Of a DNA stretch of 42,076 nt, positions 2,985 to 42,076 are shown piece by piece (position 1 is the stretch's first letter; every line of letters starts with the position of its first letter). The DNA is taken from contig JAFXXN010000196.1 of assembly GCA_017542245.1 (NCBI GenBank), positions 1-42,076 of the forward strand, written 5' to 3'. The position numbers and the translations under genes were made by a program. Source of the DNA: Lachnospiraceae bacterium. Lineage in GTDB: Bacteria > Bacillota > Clostridia > Lachnospirales > Lachnospiraceae. Under the pieces are notes generated by a model that searched no databases, had not been told where the DNA came from, and saw only the letters and a list, made by a program, of their open reading frames with translations.

Positions 2985-4364
2985 CTAAATCTTAATCTTC
3001 ACCCATTTACCCATTCTGTACCGGATACTCGCAAACAAAAACCTTGACAACTGATCTGCAAGGATTCCGAACCATATCCCGACTATACCGAAATCAAAAA
3101 CAAATCCTCCCAGCCACGAAACAAGCGTTCTCATGACCGTAACGGACATTGTCGCGGCAAAAGCGGTATAAAGAGTATCTCCTGCACCCCTTAAACATCC
3201 CATATAAATAACCTGGATTATCTGGAAAAGAACAACAAACAAAATGACCCTCATTATAGAAACACCTATCTCTATAATGTGTTCCTCCTCAAAGAACATG
3301 GACATCAGCCAGCGTGCGCCAAAGAAATATGCCAGAATCAGCACGCTTGCTATCATCATTCCGAGAGCTTTGCAGGTCTTACCATAATTCTTGGCAAGCT
3401 CCGGTTTTCCCTCACCCAAAGATCTTCCGATAAGCGCAACCGCTGCTGCCTGCAGGCCGTCACCGAAACTGAAAGTCAGACCCATAAGATTCATACCCAC
3501 CTGGTGGGCAGCCATCGCATCCATGCCCTTCTTTGCAGCCATATAAGCAGTCGCCATAAATCCTATACGCATAAGGATCTGTTCAAAAAATATGCCGTAA
3601 CCTATACGCACCAGACTCTTAAACGCACTCCAGGAAGCCTTTATCTTATCAGAAATAATATACGGGATACTGATAAAAGTCTCTTTCTTCATTATAGAAA
3701 GGATACTCATTATCGAAGAAACAACTGTTCCGAGTACTGTAGCTATAGCCGCTCCGTGGATACCGAGTGCCGGGAACCCGCAGTGGCCTTCTATCAGAAG
3801 ATAATTAAGAACAATATTGACCGCATTGGAAGTAACATTGGTTCTCATGGTAATCTTAGTATTACCTGCGCCGCGCTGTGCCGAATTGATAGCCATCTGG
3901 ACACAGTTAAAGATCATACCACCCATAATAATCCTAAAATATACAACCGCCGCTTCATGCGTTGCAATCTCTTTTGCCCCATCCTCCGTAGAACCGCAAA
4001 GCCTTATTATCGGATCTGCGGTAAAAACAAATATCAGGCTTAAGATCAAGGCTGCAATAACCACAAACAAAATAGCAGTAAGGAAAACCTGATTTGCATC
4101 CTTTCTCTGTTTCTCTCCGAATCTTCTTGCCACAAGAGCCGAAATAGAAACATTCACAGCAAAAAACATAGCAAGACCCACAAACTTAGGCTGTGTGGTA
4201 AGACCTACGGCCGCTACCGCATATGAACCCAGTCTGCTGACCATAAGAGAATCCACAAGTCCGGCGAAAGCCACAAAAAAAGATTCAACTATCGCAGGCC
4301 AGGCCATACCTATCGCAGTTTTGAAGTTTTCCCTGCTATAACCTTTAAAAATCGAGCCAAACAT
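2985..4364 (-). CDS. MATE-family efflux transporter
   Basis: Multidrug/toxin extrusion-type exporter of 459 residues with about 12 predicted membrane helices in two six-helix halves, the normal MATE length and layout. Family features include the opening helix AMAWPAIVESFFVAFAGLVDSLMVSRLG, GLTTQPKF after it, NSAQRGAGNTKITM at the end of the first half, and CLRGAGDTLYTAF at the matching place in the second half. It would extrude organic cations or drugs using an ion gradient; the substrate cannot be read from sequence. Its own promoter is at 4410-4438. It lies between two inward-facing copies of a small RNA gene, and the terminator of copy A is 13 nt beyond its stop. Confidence 0.92.
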   Translation of the reverse strand: MFGSIFKGYSRENFKTAIGMAWPAIVESFFVAFAGLVDSLMVSRLGSYAVAAVGLTTQPKFVGLAMFFAVNVSISALVARRFGEKQRKDANQVFLTAILFVVIAALILSLIFVFTADPIIRLCGSTEDGAKEIATHEAAVVYFRIIMGGMIFNCVQMAINSAQRGAGNTKITMRTNVTSNAVNIVLNYLLIEGHCGFPALGIHGAAIATVLGTVVSSIMSILSIMKKETFISIPYIISDKIKASWSAFKSLVRIGYGIFFEQILMRIGFMATAYMAAKKGMDAMAAHQVGMNLMGLTFSFGDGLQAAAVALIGRSLGEGKPELAKNYGKTCKALGMMIASVLILAYFFGARWLMSMFFEEEHIIEIGVSIMRVILFVVLFQIIQVIYMGCLRGAGDTLYTAFAATMSVTVMRTLVSWLGGFVFDFGIVGIWFGILADQLSRFLFASIRYRMGKWVKIKI

Positions 4365-37024: not shown

Positions 37025-37330
37025 TCATTTAAGGCTCTCTTGAAGAAGCTACGAACAGTTAACCCCTCGTTTGTCAGCTAAGTTAGCCATCCACCGAGGA
37101 AGCGAAACATTTTTCCTTACAGCTCTTGTATCTGTGGCTGCTCTGTACGAGATGGTGTCAATCTGTATAAGTGATAGAAAATCATTTTCCGATCTGTTCA
37201 CAACCGCCTGTCTTGTCGCTTCCGGAATATCAAGTCCTTCATCCTCGGCAACAACAAGCCATCCCGAAGCAGCATCAGTTATCTGATTGATAGCATCCTC
37301 AAGAGAAGCCCCCGTAGTTATGCACCCCTA
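37025..37330 (-). pseudogene. hicB antitoxin remnant
   Basis: Reading the minus strand gives a HicB-like protein: CITTGASLEDAINQITDA, then GLDIPEATRQAV, DTISYRAATDTRAVRKNV, SLPRWMANLADKRGVNCS, an in-frame TAG, and LLQESLK before TGA at 37025. The family reads NCSQLLQESLK, so the TAG stands for a lost Gln codon (CAG to TAG). The first ~35-40 residues are missing and are replaced exactly by a REP at 37331; another REP touches the 3' end. No hicA toxin gene is present. The frame is therefore a dead, REP-bracketed fragment. An opposite-strand open frame (37071-37286) is only its shadow. Confidence 0.85.
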
Positions 37331-37978
37331 TTCATGGGGTCTGACCCCAGGAAGCCACATCTCATCTTCCTTCATATCCTTCTGTATCAAAAGTTCCTGC
37401 TCTTCATGGGAAATCTTGCCCTCAACAAACATGCGATACTGCTCCTTGGGATTTGTGTCAAAATATGAAAAAACCCTGGAAGTATCTATAAGTTCCGCTA
37501 TATAAGATGATATTTTGCTGGCATTTTCTTCTAAACTATCCGACATAAATAACGGATAACTGCTATACTCATAATCCAATGGTTCTCTGACCATCTTAGC
37601 CTTCACCGGGTTCAGGTGTATATAACGACTCACTTCCAGGAAATAACGCTCATCCTCGATAATACAAGCCGTGTAACGCCCTTCAAAAAGATGCCCGGTA
37701 AATGAATGCTTGTGGTTAAACTCTTCAGCATAAAGACTAAGCAGCTTCTGCATTATCCGCCAAAGTTCTGTCGAAATAGTCTCAATAGCCATATGGAAAT
37801 GATTTGTCATAAGGCACAAAGAATGAACCTTAAATGGATACTTTTCTTTGATTGTCTTCATTACTTCCAGGAAATGCAGATAATCACCATAATCCTGGAA
37901 TATTGCCGTCCTTCTGTTGCCCCTACTCATCACGTGATATATCGCACCGGGATACCATATTCTTTTCTGTCTTGCCAT
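37328..37978 (-). CDS. REP-associated tyrosine transposase (RAYT), Y1/IS200-like
   Basis: Single-strand DNA transposase of 216 residues of the HUH class. The HUH motif is TNHFHMAIE (H60, H62); the catalytic tyrosine is probably Y112 or Y119 in the helix ERYFLEVSRYIHLNPVKAKMV, which is highly characteristic of RAYTs (as is HLFEGRY). GGGAGG precedes the ATG at 37978; a longer frame to 38035 is unlikely. REP copies lie on both sides (37331-37349 and 38106-38125), and the downstream one encodes the last residues GVRPHE before TAG. A hairpin GCCTGTT/AACAGGC lies upstream (38038-38065). It is the obvious candidate for having spread the GGGGTCWGACCCC repeats. Confidence 0.92.
   Translation of the reverse strand: MARQKRIWYPGAIYHVMSRGNRRTAIFQDYGDYLHFLEVMKTIKEKYPFKVHSLCLMTNHFHMAIETISTELWRIMQKLLSLYAEEFNHKHSFTGHLFEGRYTACIIEDERYFLEVSRYIHLNPVKAKMVREPLDYEYSSYPLFMSDSLEENASKISSYIAELIDTSRVFSYFDTNPKEQYRMFVEGKISHEEQELLIQKDMKEDEMWLPGVRPHE
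37331..37349 (+). repeat. REP copy at the 3' end of the RAYT gene
   Basis: TTCATGGGGTCTGACCCCA. On the minus strand it encodes the C-terminal residues of the transposase, and on the other side it cuts off the hicB remnant. Confidence 0.85.
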
Positions 37979-38071
37979 TAAACCCTCCCTAAACCTACAA
38001 CATTTACTACTATGCGGATTTTTCTTCTGAAACAAAAGCCTGTTAGGAAAACTCCCTAAACAGGCCGGAAA

Positions 38072-40773: not shown

Positions 40774-40802
40774 TTGACACTATAAGATCTTTCATATATA
40801 CT
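40774..40802 (+). promoter_or_regulatory. Strong promoter of small RNA 1
   Basis: TTGACA (40774-40779), a 17-nt spacer and TATACT (40797-40802). No ribosome-binding site or open frame follows before a terminator. Confidence 0.8.
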
Positions 40803-40808
40803 AAGGAT

Positions 40809-40880
40809 AATCGTAATAAATCATTTGGGCTGACGTATGTCTGGTCCACCGACAGGCGCTGGGAGCCTGCGCCGTTTTTT
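40809..40880 (+). ncRNA. Candidate small RNA 1 upstream of the nuclease module
   Basis: About 72 nt. A first hairpin pairs GGGC (40827-40830) with GUCC (40844-40847) and GAC with GUC around a GUAU loop. A second is the terminator: GGCGCUGG (40855-40862) and CCUGCGCC (40866-40873) with one U-U mismatch and a GAG loop, followed by six T. I recognise no known RNA class. It is divergent from the flippase remnant and precedes RNA 2 by about 115 bp. Confidence 0.6.
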
Positions 40881-40997: not shown

Positions 40998-41026
40998 TTG
41001 ACAAAACCCCTTCTACACTCTATAAT
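40998..41026 (+). promoter_or_regulatory. Consensus promoter of small RNA 2
   Basis: TTGACA (40998-41003), exactly 17 nt, then TATAAT (41021-41026): a perfect sigma-A promoter, unmatched by any other in this window. Confidence 0.9.
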
Positions 41027-41032
41027 AAAAAT

Positions 41033-41188
41033 GACAACGGACAACAGAGAGTGTCCGCTAAGCGTTGAAGCAACAGGTCGTGCCGGTAAGCGATGTGTTG
41101 TGGAGCTTTATGGATGGTTGGATGATACCCCAGAACCGGCAATGAAAACATCACTGGCTCTTCATACACTGAAGAGCCTTTTTATTTT
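41033..41188 (+). ncRNA. Candidate structured RNA 2, immediately before a nuclease gene
   Basis: About 150 nt from a consensus promoter to an intrinsic terminator: 9-bp stem GGCTCTTCA (41156-41164) / TGAAGAGCC (41170-41178), then T5ATTTT. Predicted hairpins are CGGACA/UGUCCG (41038-41043 with 41052-41057) and GCAACA/UGUUGU plus UCG/CGA (41070-41075, 41078-41080 with 41091-41093, 41096-41101). The loop of the second contains GCCGGU (41082-41087), complementary over 6 bp to ACCGGC at 41135-41140, a possible pseudoknot. The nuclease start is 25 nt past the terminator with no other promoter between. An open frame 41031-41201 runs across it but has no ribosome-binding site and begins at the expected transcript start. 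Confidence 0.65.
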
Positions 41189-41212
41189 CTATAAATTCTG
41201 AAAGGCAATCTA

Positions 41213-41827
41213 ATGACTTCCGAAATACTTCTGCAAAGCGTCCAATCATATTCCGATTTAATTGGAACTGAATATAATTTTCATATTGGTCGAGCCGGCA
41301 AACTCATAAAATTCTCGATCACAATCCTTAAAGAGGACTGTCACCATCTTTTAGGATTACAGCATCTTAGTGATCGTCCTGAAAGAAGAAAGCGTACAAC
41401 AGTCTTTGATGAACTGTTGTCTTCAAAAAATTATCGACATAATATCGCCTCTTCGACATTATGGACAACGGAGCTGGAAACCAGGGTGCTATGTGTAAAA
41501 CTGCTGGGCAATATAATAGAAGATAATAACACCATCATCCGCTATAATTCGAAACTAAACAACTATTCTAAAATAACAGCGGAGTACTTACTGATAAACA
41601 AGAATTACCAATTAACCAATAATCTTTTCTCAGATATATATCTTTTCGTAGATAAACGTAGCGAAGAAGCTGGTAATATGTTTTGTAAGTCTATATTCAC
41701 AAAATCAGTGTATGATTATGCTGCCGGTCAGGAAAACTGGACCCTTCTGTACAAAACAAAGACATCTTCTAATGGAATAACAACAGTTTTATATCAGCGT
41801 TTAAACTATAATCCAGAATATCAATAA
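41213..41827 (+). CDS. PBECR4-like nuclease-domain protein
   Basis: Protein of 204 residues that resembles the PBECR4 group (phage-associated barnase/EndoU/colicin E5-D/RelE-like nucleases). The N-terminal half has the family pattern LIGTEYNFHIGRAGKLIKFSI, then HHLLGLQHLSDRP with conserved His and Leu, and the C-terminal end has strand-rich segments ITAEYLLI and DIYLFVDKR. AAAGG lies 7 nt before the ATG. If it is an RNase toxin, its only visible transcription is read-through of the terminator at 41156-41188, the layout of type III toxin-antitoxin loci. The family call comes from motif memory and needs a profile search. Confidence 0.6.
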   Translation: MTSEILLQSVQSYSDLIGTEYNFHIGRAGKLIKFSITILKEDCHHLLGLQHLSDRPERRKRTTVFDELLSSKNYRHNIASSTLWTTELETRVLCVKLLGNIIEDNNTIIRYNSKLNNYSKITAEYLLINKNYQLTNNLFSDIYLFVDKRSEEAGNMFCKSIFTKSVYDYAAGQENWTLLYKTKTSSNGITTVLYQRLNYNPEYQ

Positions 41828-41838
41828 ATCAATTCGCT

Positions 41839-42076
41839 TCACCCAAGGACAGATACATAACCAACTGGAAAAAGCCTGTATACTCCATCAGGCTGTCGGA
41901 TCAGTTCTATCTTTTCAAGTTCCCTTATTGCTGCCGGAACAGTCATGTAATTCTTCTTTTTATGGATCTCCTTCATCCTGTCGGTCAGGCAGCTATATAT
42001 CTTATTCCTTATTATCAGTGCGATAAACTCTATGAATATCTTGCTGTGTGTGGGCTCGTCATGGTAAACCCTCATG
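41839..42076 (-). CDS. Transposase C-terminal part, runs off the window
   Basis: The final 78 codons of an IS4/IS1634-like transposase. The segment HSKIFIEFIALIIRNKIYSCLTDRM and the end YMTVPAAIRELEKIELIRQPDGVYRL match the C-terminal region after the catalytic Glu. The beginning lies beyond the right edge, so whether the gene is complete is unknown. The start codon at 42075 is only the first Met in the window. Confidence 0.7.
   Translation of the reverse strand, partial: MRVYHDEPTHSKIFIEFIALIIRNKIYSCLTDRMKEIHKKKNYMTVPAAIRELEKIELIRQPDGVYRLFPVGYVSVLG

Follow-up and report, generated by a model that had tools for sequence, protein, structure and literature searches.

The locus lies on a contig of a Lachnospiraceae bacterium (GCA_017542245.1, contig JAFXXN010000196.1), from which we analysed a stretch of 42,076 nt (hereafter, the window). 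All parts of the module are on the plus strand. It begins with a sigma-A type promoter, TTGACA-N17-TATAAT, at positions 40998-41026, which matches the consensus at 12 of 12 positions (-35 box TTGACA, 40998-41003; -10 box TATAAT, 41021-41026; spacer of 17 nt). The promoter precedes an RNA of about 155 nt including its terminator, which we place at 41033-41188, taking transcription to start about 7 nt past the -10 box and to end in the T-run. A 5′ hairpin of six pairs is predicted by folding at 41038-41057, and an intrinsic terminator with a T-rich tail occupies 41156-41188 (stem of nine pairs at 41156-41178, then TTTTTATTTT). A ribosome-binding site, AAAGG, can be read at 41201-41205, upstream of the ATG at 41213 that opens a gene for a predicted RNase toxin of 204 aa (41213-41827). 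The perfect promoter, the terminator and the gene's own ribosome-binding site had been pointed out in an earlier note made from the sequence, and all were borne out, as was the absence of tandem repeats from the RNA (internal-repeat score 28, shuffled mean 28.3). RNA and gene each occur once in the 4.7-Mb genome, adjacent to one another.

Other small elements lie nearby. The palindrome GGGGTCTGACCCC, or a form of it with one mismatch, has 14 matches on both strands between 35837 and 40050 (0.01 expected). The palindromes surround a gene for an IS200-like Y1 transposase (37328-38035, minus strand), and we take them to be REP-like elements of a REP-associated transposase. At 40774-40869 a second promoter (11/12) is followed by a terminator-like hairpin, possibly a gene for a small RNA about 70 nt long; it has one copy in the genome, and 37 nt of its 3′ end recur at C180. 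On the minus strand, 41839-42075 is similar to the C-terminal end of an IS1634-family transposase (22.2 bits, under the model cut-off) and is truncated where the window stops.

Rfam covariance models identified the window RNA as drum, RF02958 (core at 41060-41156; 63.2 bits, gathering cut-off 43), the sole match at gathering threshold across the 42-kb window. The earlier note had suggested a new RNA-protein pair; the pairing stands as a finding, but the RNA belongs to an already known Rfam family. Drum was reportedly described by Weinberg et al. in 2017. The energy of thermodynamic folding was modestly better than that of shuffled sequences for 41033-41190 (z -1.92) and no better for 41033-41160 (z -0.67). 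With signals so weak, we rejected folding energy as proof of an RNA gene and used the covariance model instead. Nor did a conserved small protein in 41031-41201, raised in the earlier note as a reason to doubt the RNA, find support, and we rejected it: a stop-free frame spans drum in 6 of 49 loci, no excess over shuffles (18%), an ATG frame of at least 25 aa starts within drum in 10 of the 49, and the 67-aa ORF at 40998-41201, which begins inside the -35 box, has no Pfam match.

We examined the structure in an alignment of 77 distinct drum sequences. In total 91.2% of cells were paired, compared with 76.8% for shuffled partners and 35-45% for slid partners in the same alignment; helix 1, the counterpart of the 5′ hairpin, was paired in 91.1%. 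The pseudoknot joins GCCGGT in a hairpin loop (41082-41087) to ACCGGC (41135-41140) and is outside the structure to which the alignment was fitted. Its covariation was seen first in 18 and later in the 77 distinct sequences, the five core pairs forming in 93.8% of cells with two-sided changes in five of five. The sixth pair formed in 53.3%, so that the 6-bp pseudoknot thought possible in the earlier note holds for its core and is weakly supported at its last pair. A short helix taken from the Rfam alignment, ATG (41122-41124) with CAT (41149-41151), was paired in 96.1% of cells. The loop of a GGTT/AACC hairpin contains the 5′ side of this helix, and the 3′ half of drum thus also resembles an H-type pseudoknot; the hairpin itself varies too little for a covariation test and is not perfectly formed in the window. 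The best-conserved unpaired segment of drum is GAAAGAAA. The k-turn of drum was found by another group to fold in vitro (PMC8191799).

The protein encoded downstream is PBECR4 (PF18813; 78.8 bits against a gathering score of 27, E 9.1e-22; profile positions 1-186 of 188), as the earlier note had proposed. Among 89 relatives, His45 and Gly48 are invariant (His in 89/89), position 91 is Arg or Lys in 89/89 (R91 in the window protein), and 86/89 have Ser or Thr at position 160 (S160). A His and Ser/Thr active site has been given for five of six PBECR families (Iyer et al., PMC5512222), and H45 and S/T160 would fit this BECR-fold active site if the residues are equivalent. PBECR4 is thus a predicted RNase, judged by the family name and the conserved His, Arg/Lys and Ser/Thr. 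An AlphaFold2 model of a class B relative (L031; pLDDT 86.9, pTM 0.84) puts the aligned His64 in a helix and Thr161 in a strand. The gene is under purifying selection, with a median dN/dS of 0.06 over 86 pairs (including two loci, L098 and L100, where drum was not found). As the earlier note had stated, the protein appears not to be a ToxN/AbiQ relative, at least by sequence: no Pfam match to the ToxN family was found at E up to 1, and a sequence search of PDB chains gave none below E 0.05. NCBIfam and PHROGs returned nothing for the window protein, and the PHROGs match of one relative (L028, E 9e-5) is a family of unknown function. We do not believe a weak match to a PADLOC Argonaute model (17.4 bits, E 2e-4) or a Pfam bHLH_INO2 match below the model cut-off (21.1 bits).

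We then looked at the pairing from the side of the protein. A scan of a collection of species genomes with PBECR4 peptide patterns, which used no RNA information, gave 67 loci, mostly from Lachnospiraceae and other Clostridia, with further hosts among Treponema, Lactobacillus, Mitsuokella and a Saccharibacterium. Our own covariance model (R1, built from 18 drum RNAs) found drum upstream on the same strand at 61 of these 67 loci (E ≤2e-4), or at 56 of 62 if five loci on contigs that also gave R1 training sequences (L072, L090, L094, L097, L110) are left aside. This is the conservation upstream of PBECR4 homologues that the earlier note had proposed to look for by covariance search. The distance from drum to the domain was at most 134 nt in 59 of the 61, 259 nt in L103 and 1.5 kb in L086. 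With the Rfam model, drum scored above its own cut-off in 14 of the 20 loci scanned, a mixed set including two plasmid and four order-sample loci (see below). When the window was added to the 61 drum loci, a promoter with at least 9/12 matches preceded drum in 60 of 62, and a strict scan found a terminator behind it in 41 of 62 and none in the other 21; at 549 control positions in the same loci the rates were 8.7% and 8.0%, respectively. The layout that the note had likened to type III toxin-antitoxin loci (promoter, RNA, terminator, gene) is thus present in the window and recurs widely outside it.

The same association was seen from the side of the RNA. In 392 genomes of the host order (the order sample), the Rfam drum model gave 26 matches in 21 genomes, 23 of them above the gathering score, and the Pfam PBECR4 model gave 68 rows in 56 genomes. 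Drum stood directly before PBECR4 on the same strand in 19 of the 26, with 51-71 bases between the RNA match and the domain match. Among the other seven, PBECR4 remnants were found by profile at L013 (C-terminal piece, 72.5 bits) and L015 (N-terminal piece, 40.5 bits), and a 14-residue N-terminal remnant could be made out by eye at L011; PBECR4 was not seen behind drum at L020, L023, L022 and L027, the last two of which are below the Rfam cut-off (37 bits; 43.8 and 24.4 by our own model) and were retained in the count of 26. Across 398 genomes sampled from the whole phylum, drum occurred in the genome of the window and two others, with PBECR4 behind it in one (G420) and without in the other (G460); in a phylum sample of 398, PBECR4 occurred in four genomes, of which the window's own and G028 were already in the order sample. 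Drum without PBECR4 was found at L020, L023 and L058.

Drum and PBECR4 form one heritable unit of constant order: a strong promoter, a pseudoknotted RNA, in most loci a terminator, and the gene. RNA and protein distances were correlated (53 loci, Spearman 0.88, a value reached in 0 of 999 permutations; the Mantel test omits L086, L102 and L093), also among pairs of more than 50% protein distance (0.83). The class of the RNA follows the protein lineage: on the protein tree it requires 10 changes, with a minimum of 8 and a shuffled mean of 25.1, in a labelling that calls all full-length class A rows drum, wrongly so for L098 and L100, which gave no drum match. Treponema rows fall among those of Lachnospiraceae, which suggests that RNA and gene travel as a pair.

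The RNA also outlasts the gene. The gene is full-length (at least 85% of the profile in one frame) in 50 of the 61 drum loci and broken in 11. Four of the six loci without drum have a broken gene; of the other two, L098 matches from profile position 16 and L100 begins within the gene at a contig end, and besides these no full-length gene without drum was found among the 67 loci (Fisher p = 0.02 for drum versus intactness, L098 and L100 counted as full-length). Drum is likewise kept beside broken genes, recognized by profile, at L013 and L015. An antidote would be expected to survive beside a dead gene, as the RNA does, although the asymmetry is partly due to the gene being about four times as long as the RNA. 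At L102, two extra drum genes (3747-3890 and 4127-4271) with their own promoters and terminators lie behind a complete module; they are possibly spare or anti-addiction copies.

A separate branch of PBECR4, with 100/100 tree support, carries a different RNA. R1 detected drum at 0 of 14 loci scanned. In this branch the promoter is followed by a GGTG..CACC hairpin, a tandem pair of units of about 52 nt each, a closing helix of long range, the terminator and finally PBECR4. Each unit contains a GTTG-loop-CAAC hairpin; the partner of loop 1 is a segment immediately past an A-rich linker, and that of loop 2 is the start of the array. Over 13 sequences, 96.8% of cells were paired (83.0% when shuffled); loop-1 pairs formed in 98.1%, with two-sided changes in four of four, and loop-2 pairs in 94.2%, with a two-sided change in one of four. 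Identity between the two units averages 77% (48% when shuffled) and is 60% in a phage copy (L071), barely over the best shuffle. Rfam searches of 17 loci without drum, up to E 1, gave no family for this RNA. Separately, the repeat RNA is preceded on its own strand, at a distance of about 90-150 nt, by Clostridiales-1 RNA in L034 (2453-2620) and by DUF3800-XI RNA in L042 (2378-2425).

A covariance model of the repeat RNA (R2) gave 38 matches in 29 of the 392 genomes, 23 of them directly upstream of PBECR4. Eleven of those 23 were training sequences chosen for that position, which leaves 12 of 27 without them; both R1 and R2 were trained on order-sample loci, and matches there are partly by construction. 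Of the remaining 15 matches, four stand before PBECR4 pieces, recognized by profile (L142, L165) or on visual inspection (L147, L156). The match at L166 is interrupted by a contig end, that in G343:C1 is 1.5 kb upstream of PBECR4, that in G249 comes after a PBECR4, and that in G270 is a second tandem copy; the last seven have no PBECR4. In none of the 67 drum-type loci did R2 match with an E below 0.5. At three loci (L160, L163, L167) repeat-RNA genes are reduced to one unit (87-92 nt), without a downstream PBECR4.

The 68 PBECR4 rows of the order sample represent 67 genes, one being split by stops. Twenty of these have drum (19 by Rfam, G028 by R1) and three more weak R1 matches (G363, G334, G101); 23 have the repeat RNA, with one further weak match (G361), three are cut by contig ends (G338, G095, G044), and one (G343:C1) has the repeat RNA at the 1.5-kb distance noted above. 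Of the remaining 16, inspection by eye gave 11 with another structured, terminator-ended leader: class C at L171, L172, L173, L179 and L181, class D at L177, L182 and L187, drum-like leaders at L188 and L191 and a repeat-like one at L185. The other five comprise L183, with a short possible leader only, the truncated L176, L186 and L189, and L178, a PBECR4 frame of 199 aa that has a repeat RNA after it and no RNA before it. Class C and D leaders, which are repeated or hairpin-rich, had no Rfam match over cut-off in the loci scanned (seven of eight, L173 being left out); as RNA families they are leads. They appear to follow a common plan, in which a hairpin loop pairs across an A-rich linker, and a single ancestral pseudoknot may lie behind both drum and the repeat RNA.

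PBECR4 proteins are mostly solo and on chromosomes, and also occur on plasmids. Nineteen Enterococcus plasmid records carry a relative, with drum in all four examined, and neighbours of the module there include TIR-domain, AbiH and MazF-family genes; a plasmid search with a class B protein (L043) gave no match. The window protein had no match in 50,697 phage records, and a pattern-limited scan of viral contigs gave no drum-type relative, so we rejected a phage-borne module for the type found in the window. The class B protein was found in one phage record and one viral contig, and the phage copy sits behind a type III restriction system. The plasmid and phage neighbourhoods fit defence or addiction.

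We consider it probable, at about 75%, that drum and PBECR4 make up a two-part toxin-antitoxin module that works in a type III-like way, with drum as the candidate RNA antitoxin of a putative PBECR4 RNase. The promoter and a leaky terminator would together yield much RNA and little toxin mRNA. Folded drum would bind PBECR4 and block its active site, perhaps through contacts made by the conserved unpaired stretch. If transcription stopped (for example, upon phage infection) or the element were lost, the RNA would decay first, and the freed RNase would cut cellular RNA and halt growth. In a broader reading, to which we lean with less assurance, PBECR4 is the toxin of a large unrecognized group with several RNA antitoxins, namely drum, the double-pseudoknot RNA with tandem units that is absent from Rfam, and a minimum of two others (classes C and D) recognized by eye.

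The pairing, the abundance and the covariation fit equally well a guide or activating RNA that PBECR4, as an RNA-dependent nuclease, would use as cofactor or targeting RNA, and conflict with RNA-based host systems is discussed for PBECR domains by Iyer et al. (PMC5512222). However, no variable spacer-like segment is apparent, and in all drum helices pairing is preserved by compensatory changes. RNA that outlasts broken genes (11/61) is not a specific prediction of such a role, and where tandem pseudoknotted RNAs are known in such a gene order, they act as antitoxins (PMC5086642). We regard a guide or activator as unlikely. It is also possible to take PBECR4 as an RNA-binding partner of drum and not an RNase, as Iyer et al. 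proposed an RNA-binding role for the PBECR domain of phage Mu MuF, which is inactive; with His45 in 89/89 and Ser/Thr160 in 86/89 fitting the PBECR active site (PMC5512222), this seems very improbable.

The position of drum invites explanations in which it acts on the mRNA. It lies in the 5′ leader of PBECR4 with a terminator at its end, as would a cis-acting attenuator or sensor (for instance, one autoregulated by the protein) with no action on the protein, and AbiD1 has a structured, phage-responsive leader (PMC12373285). Complementarity between drum and the terminator, however, was not in excess (mean z -0.05, 49 loci), drum is found with no downstream gene at the three loci named above, and the two extra drum genes at L102 have their own promoters and terminators; a cis-acting leader is thus improbable. 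An antisense RNA of the type I kind, which would pair with the toxin mRNA, could be expected to adjoin the putative toxin gene, as drum does. Yet drum is on the same strand, and its complementarity to the mRNA start was not in excess either (mean z -0.11, 49 loci; 10% below -2), making this reading exceedingly improbable. The shuffles, in two-base blocks, are a rough control, and on the lack of signal in the 49 loci we rejected both antisense pairing and attenuation.

The proposed antitoxin role of drum invites comparison with the type III systems ToxIN, CptIN and TenpIN, which share the order of promoter, pseudoknotted RNA, terminator and gene. The RNA of the separate branch adds a further likeness in its two tandem units of about 52 nt, CptI and TenpI having about 2.1 repeats of 45-50 nt (PMC12373285). 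In contrast, drum has no tandem repeats and PBECR4 no detectable relationship to ToxN. Type III loci have been searched for by a ToxN homologue, a terminator and tandem repeats (PMC5086642); the window locus lacks the repeats and the ToxN homology, and we therefore describe it as a variant and do not file it as a type III member. The tandem-repeat RNA beside PBECR4 relatives strengthens the comparison, as the repeats are present in the separate branch. RNA-neutralized toxins outside the ToxN family are represented by AbiF and AvcID (PMC12373285 and PMC10511110). AbiF-RCd22 and AvcID, called type III by their authors, likewise have a non-coding RNA beside a gene for a toxin unlike ToxN; their proteins are Abi_2/AbiF and a deoxycytidylate deaminase, respectively, and their RNAs are different. 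Neutralization was demonstrated for these two systems, whereas for drum and PBECR4 it is what we infer.

Excerpts of the literature on RF02958 name no partner gene or function, and the link between drum, of which the window RNA is a member, and PBECR4 did not turn up in the literature searched; an earlier remark in the original description of drum is possible. The name PBECR4 was likewise absent from the literature searched. Solo PBECR domains were described in phages and mobile elements in PMC5512222, where the term noncoding RNA is not mentioned; those studied here are, in contrast, mostly solo chromosomal and plasmid proteins, with a single phage record, from the class B branch.

The orphan RNA drum thus gains a partner and a candidate function, and the repeat RNA is an additional RNA family absent from Rfam, so that two types of RNA can be compared as means of holding one protein family. 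If the proposed antitoxin role is correct, RNA-neutralized toxins would extend to a BECR-type RNase family, and the PBECR4 genes on Enterococcus plasmids would be candidate addiction or defence modules.
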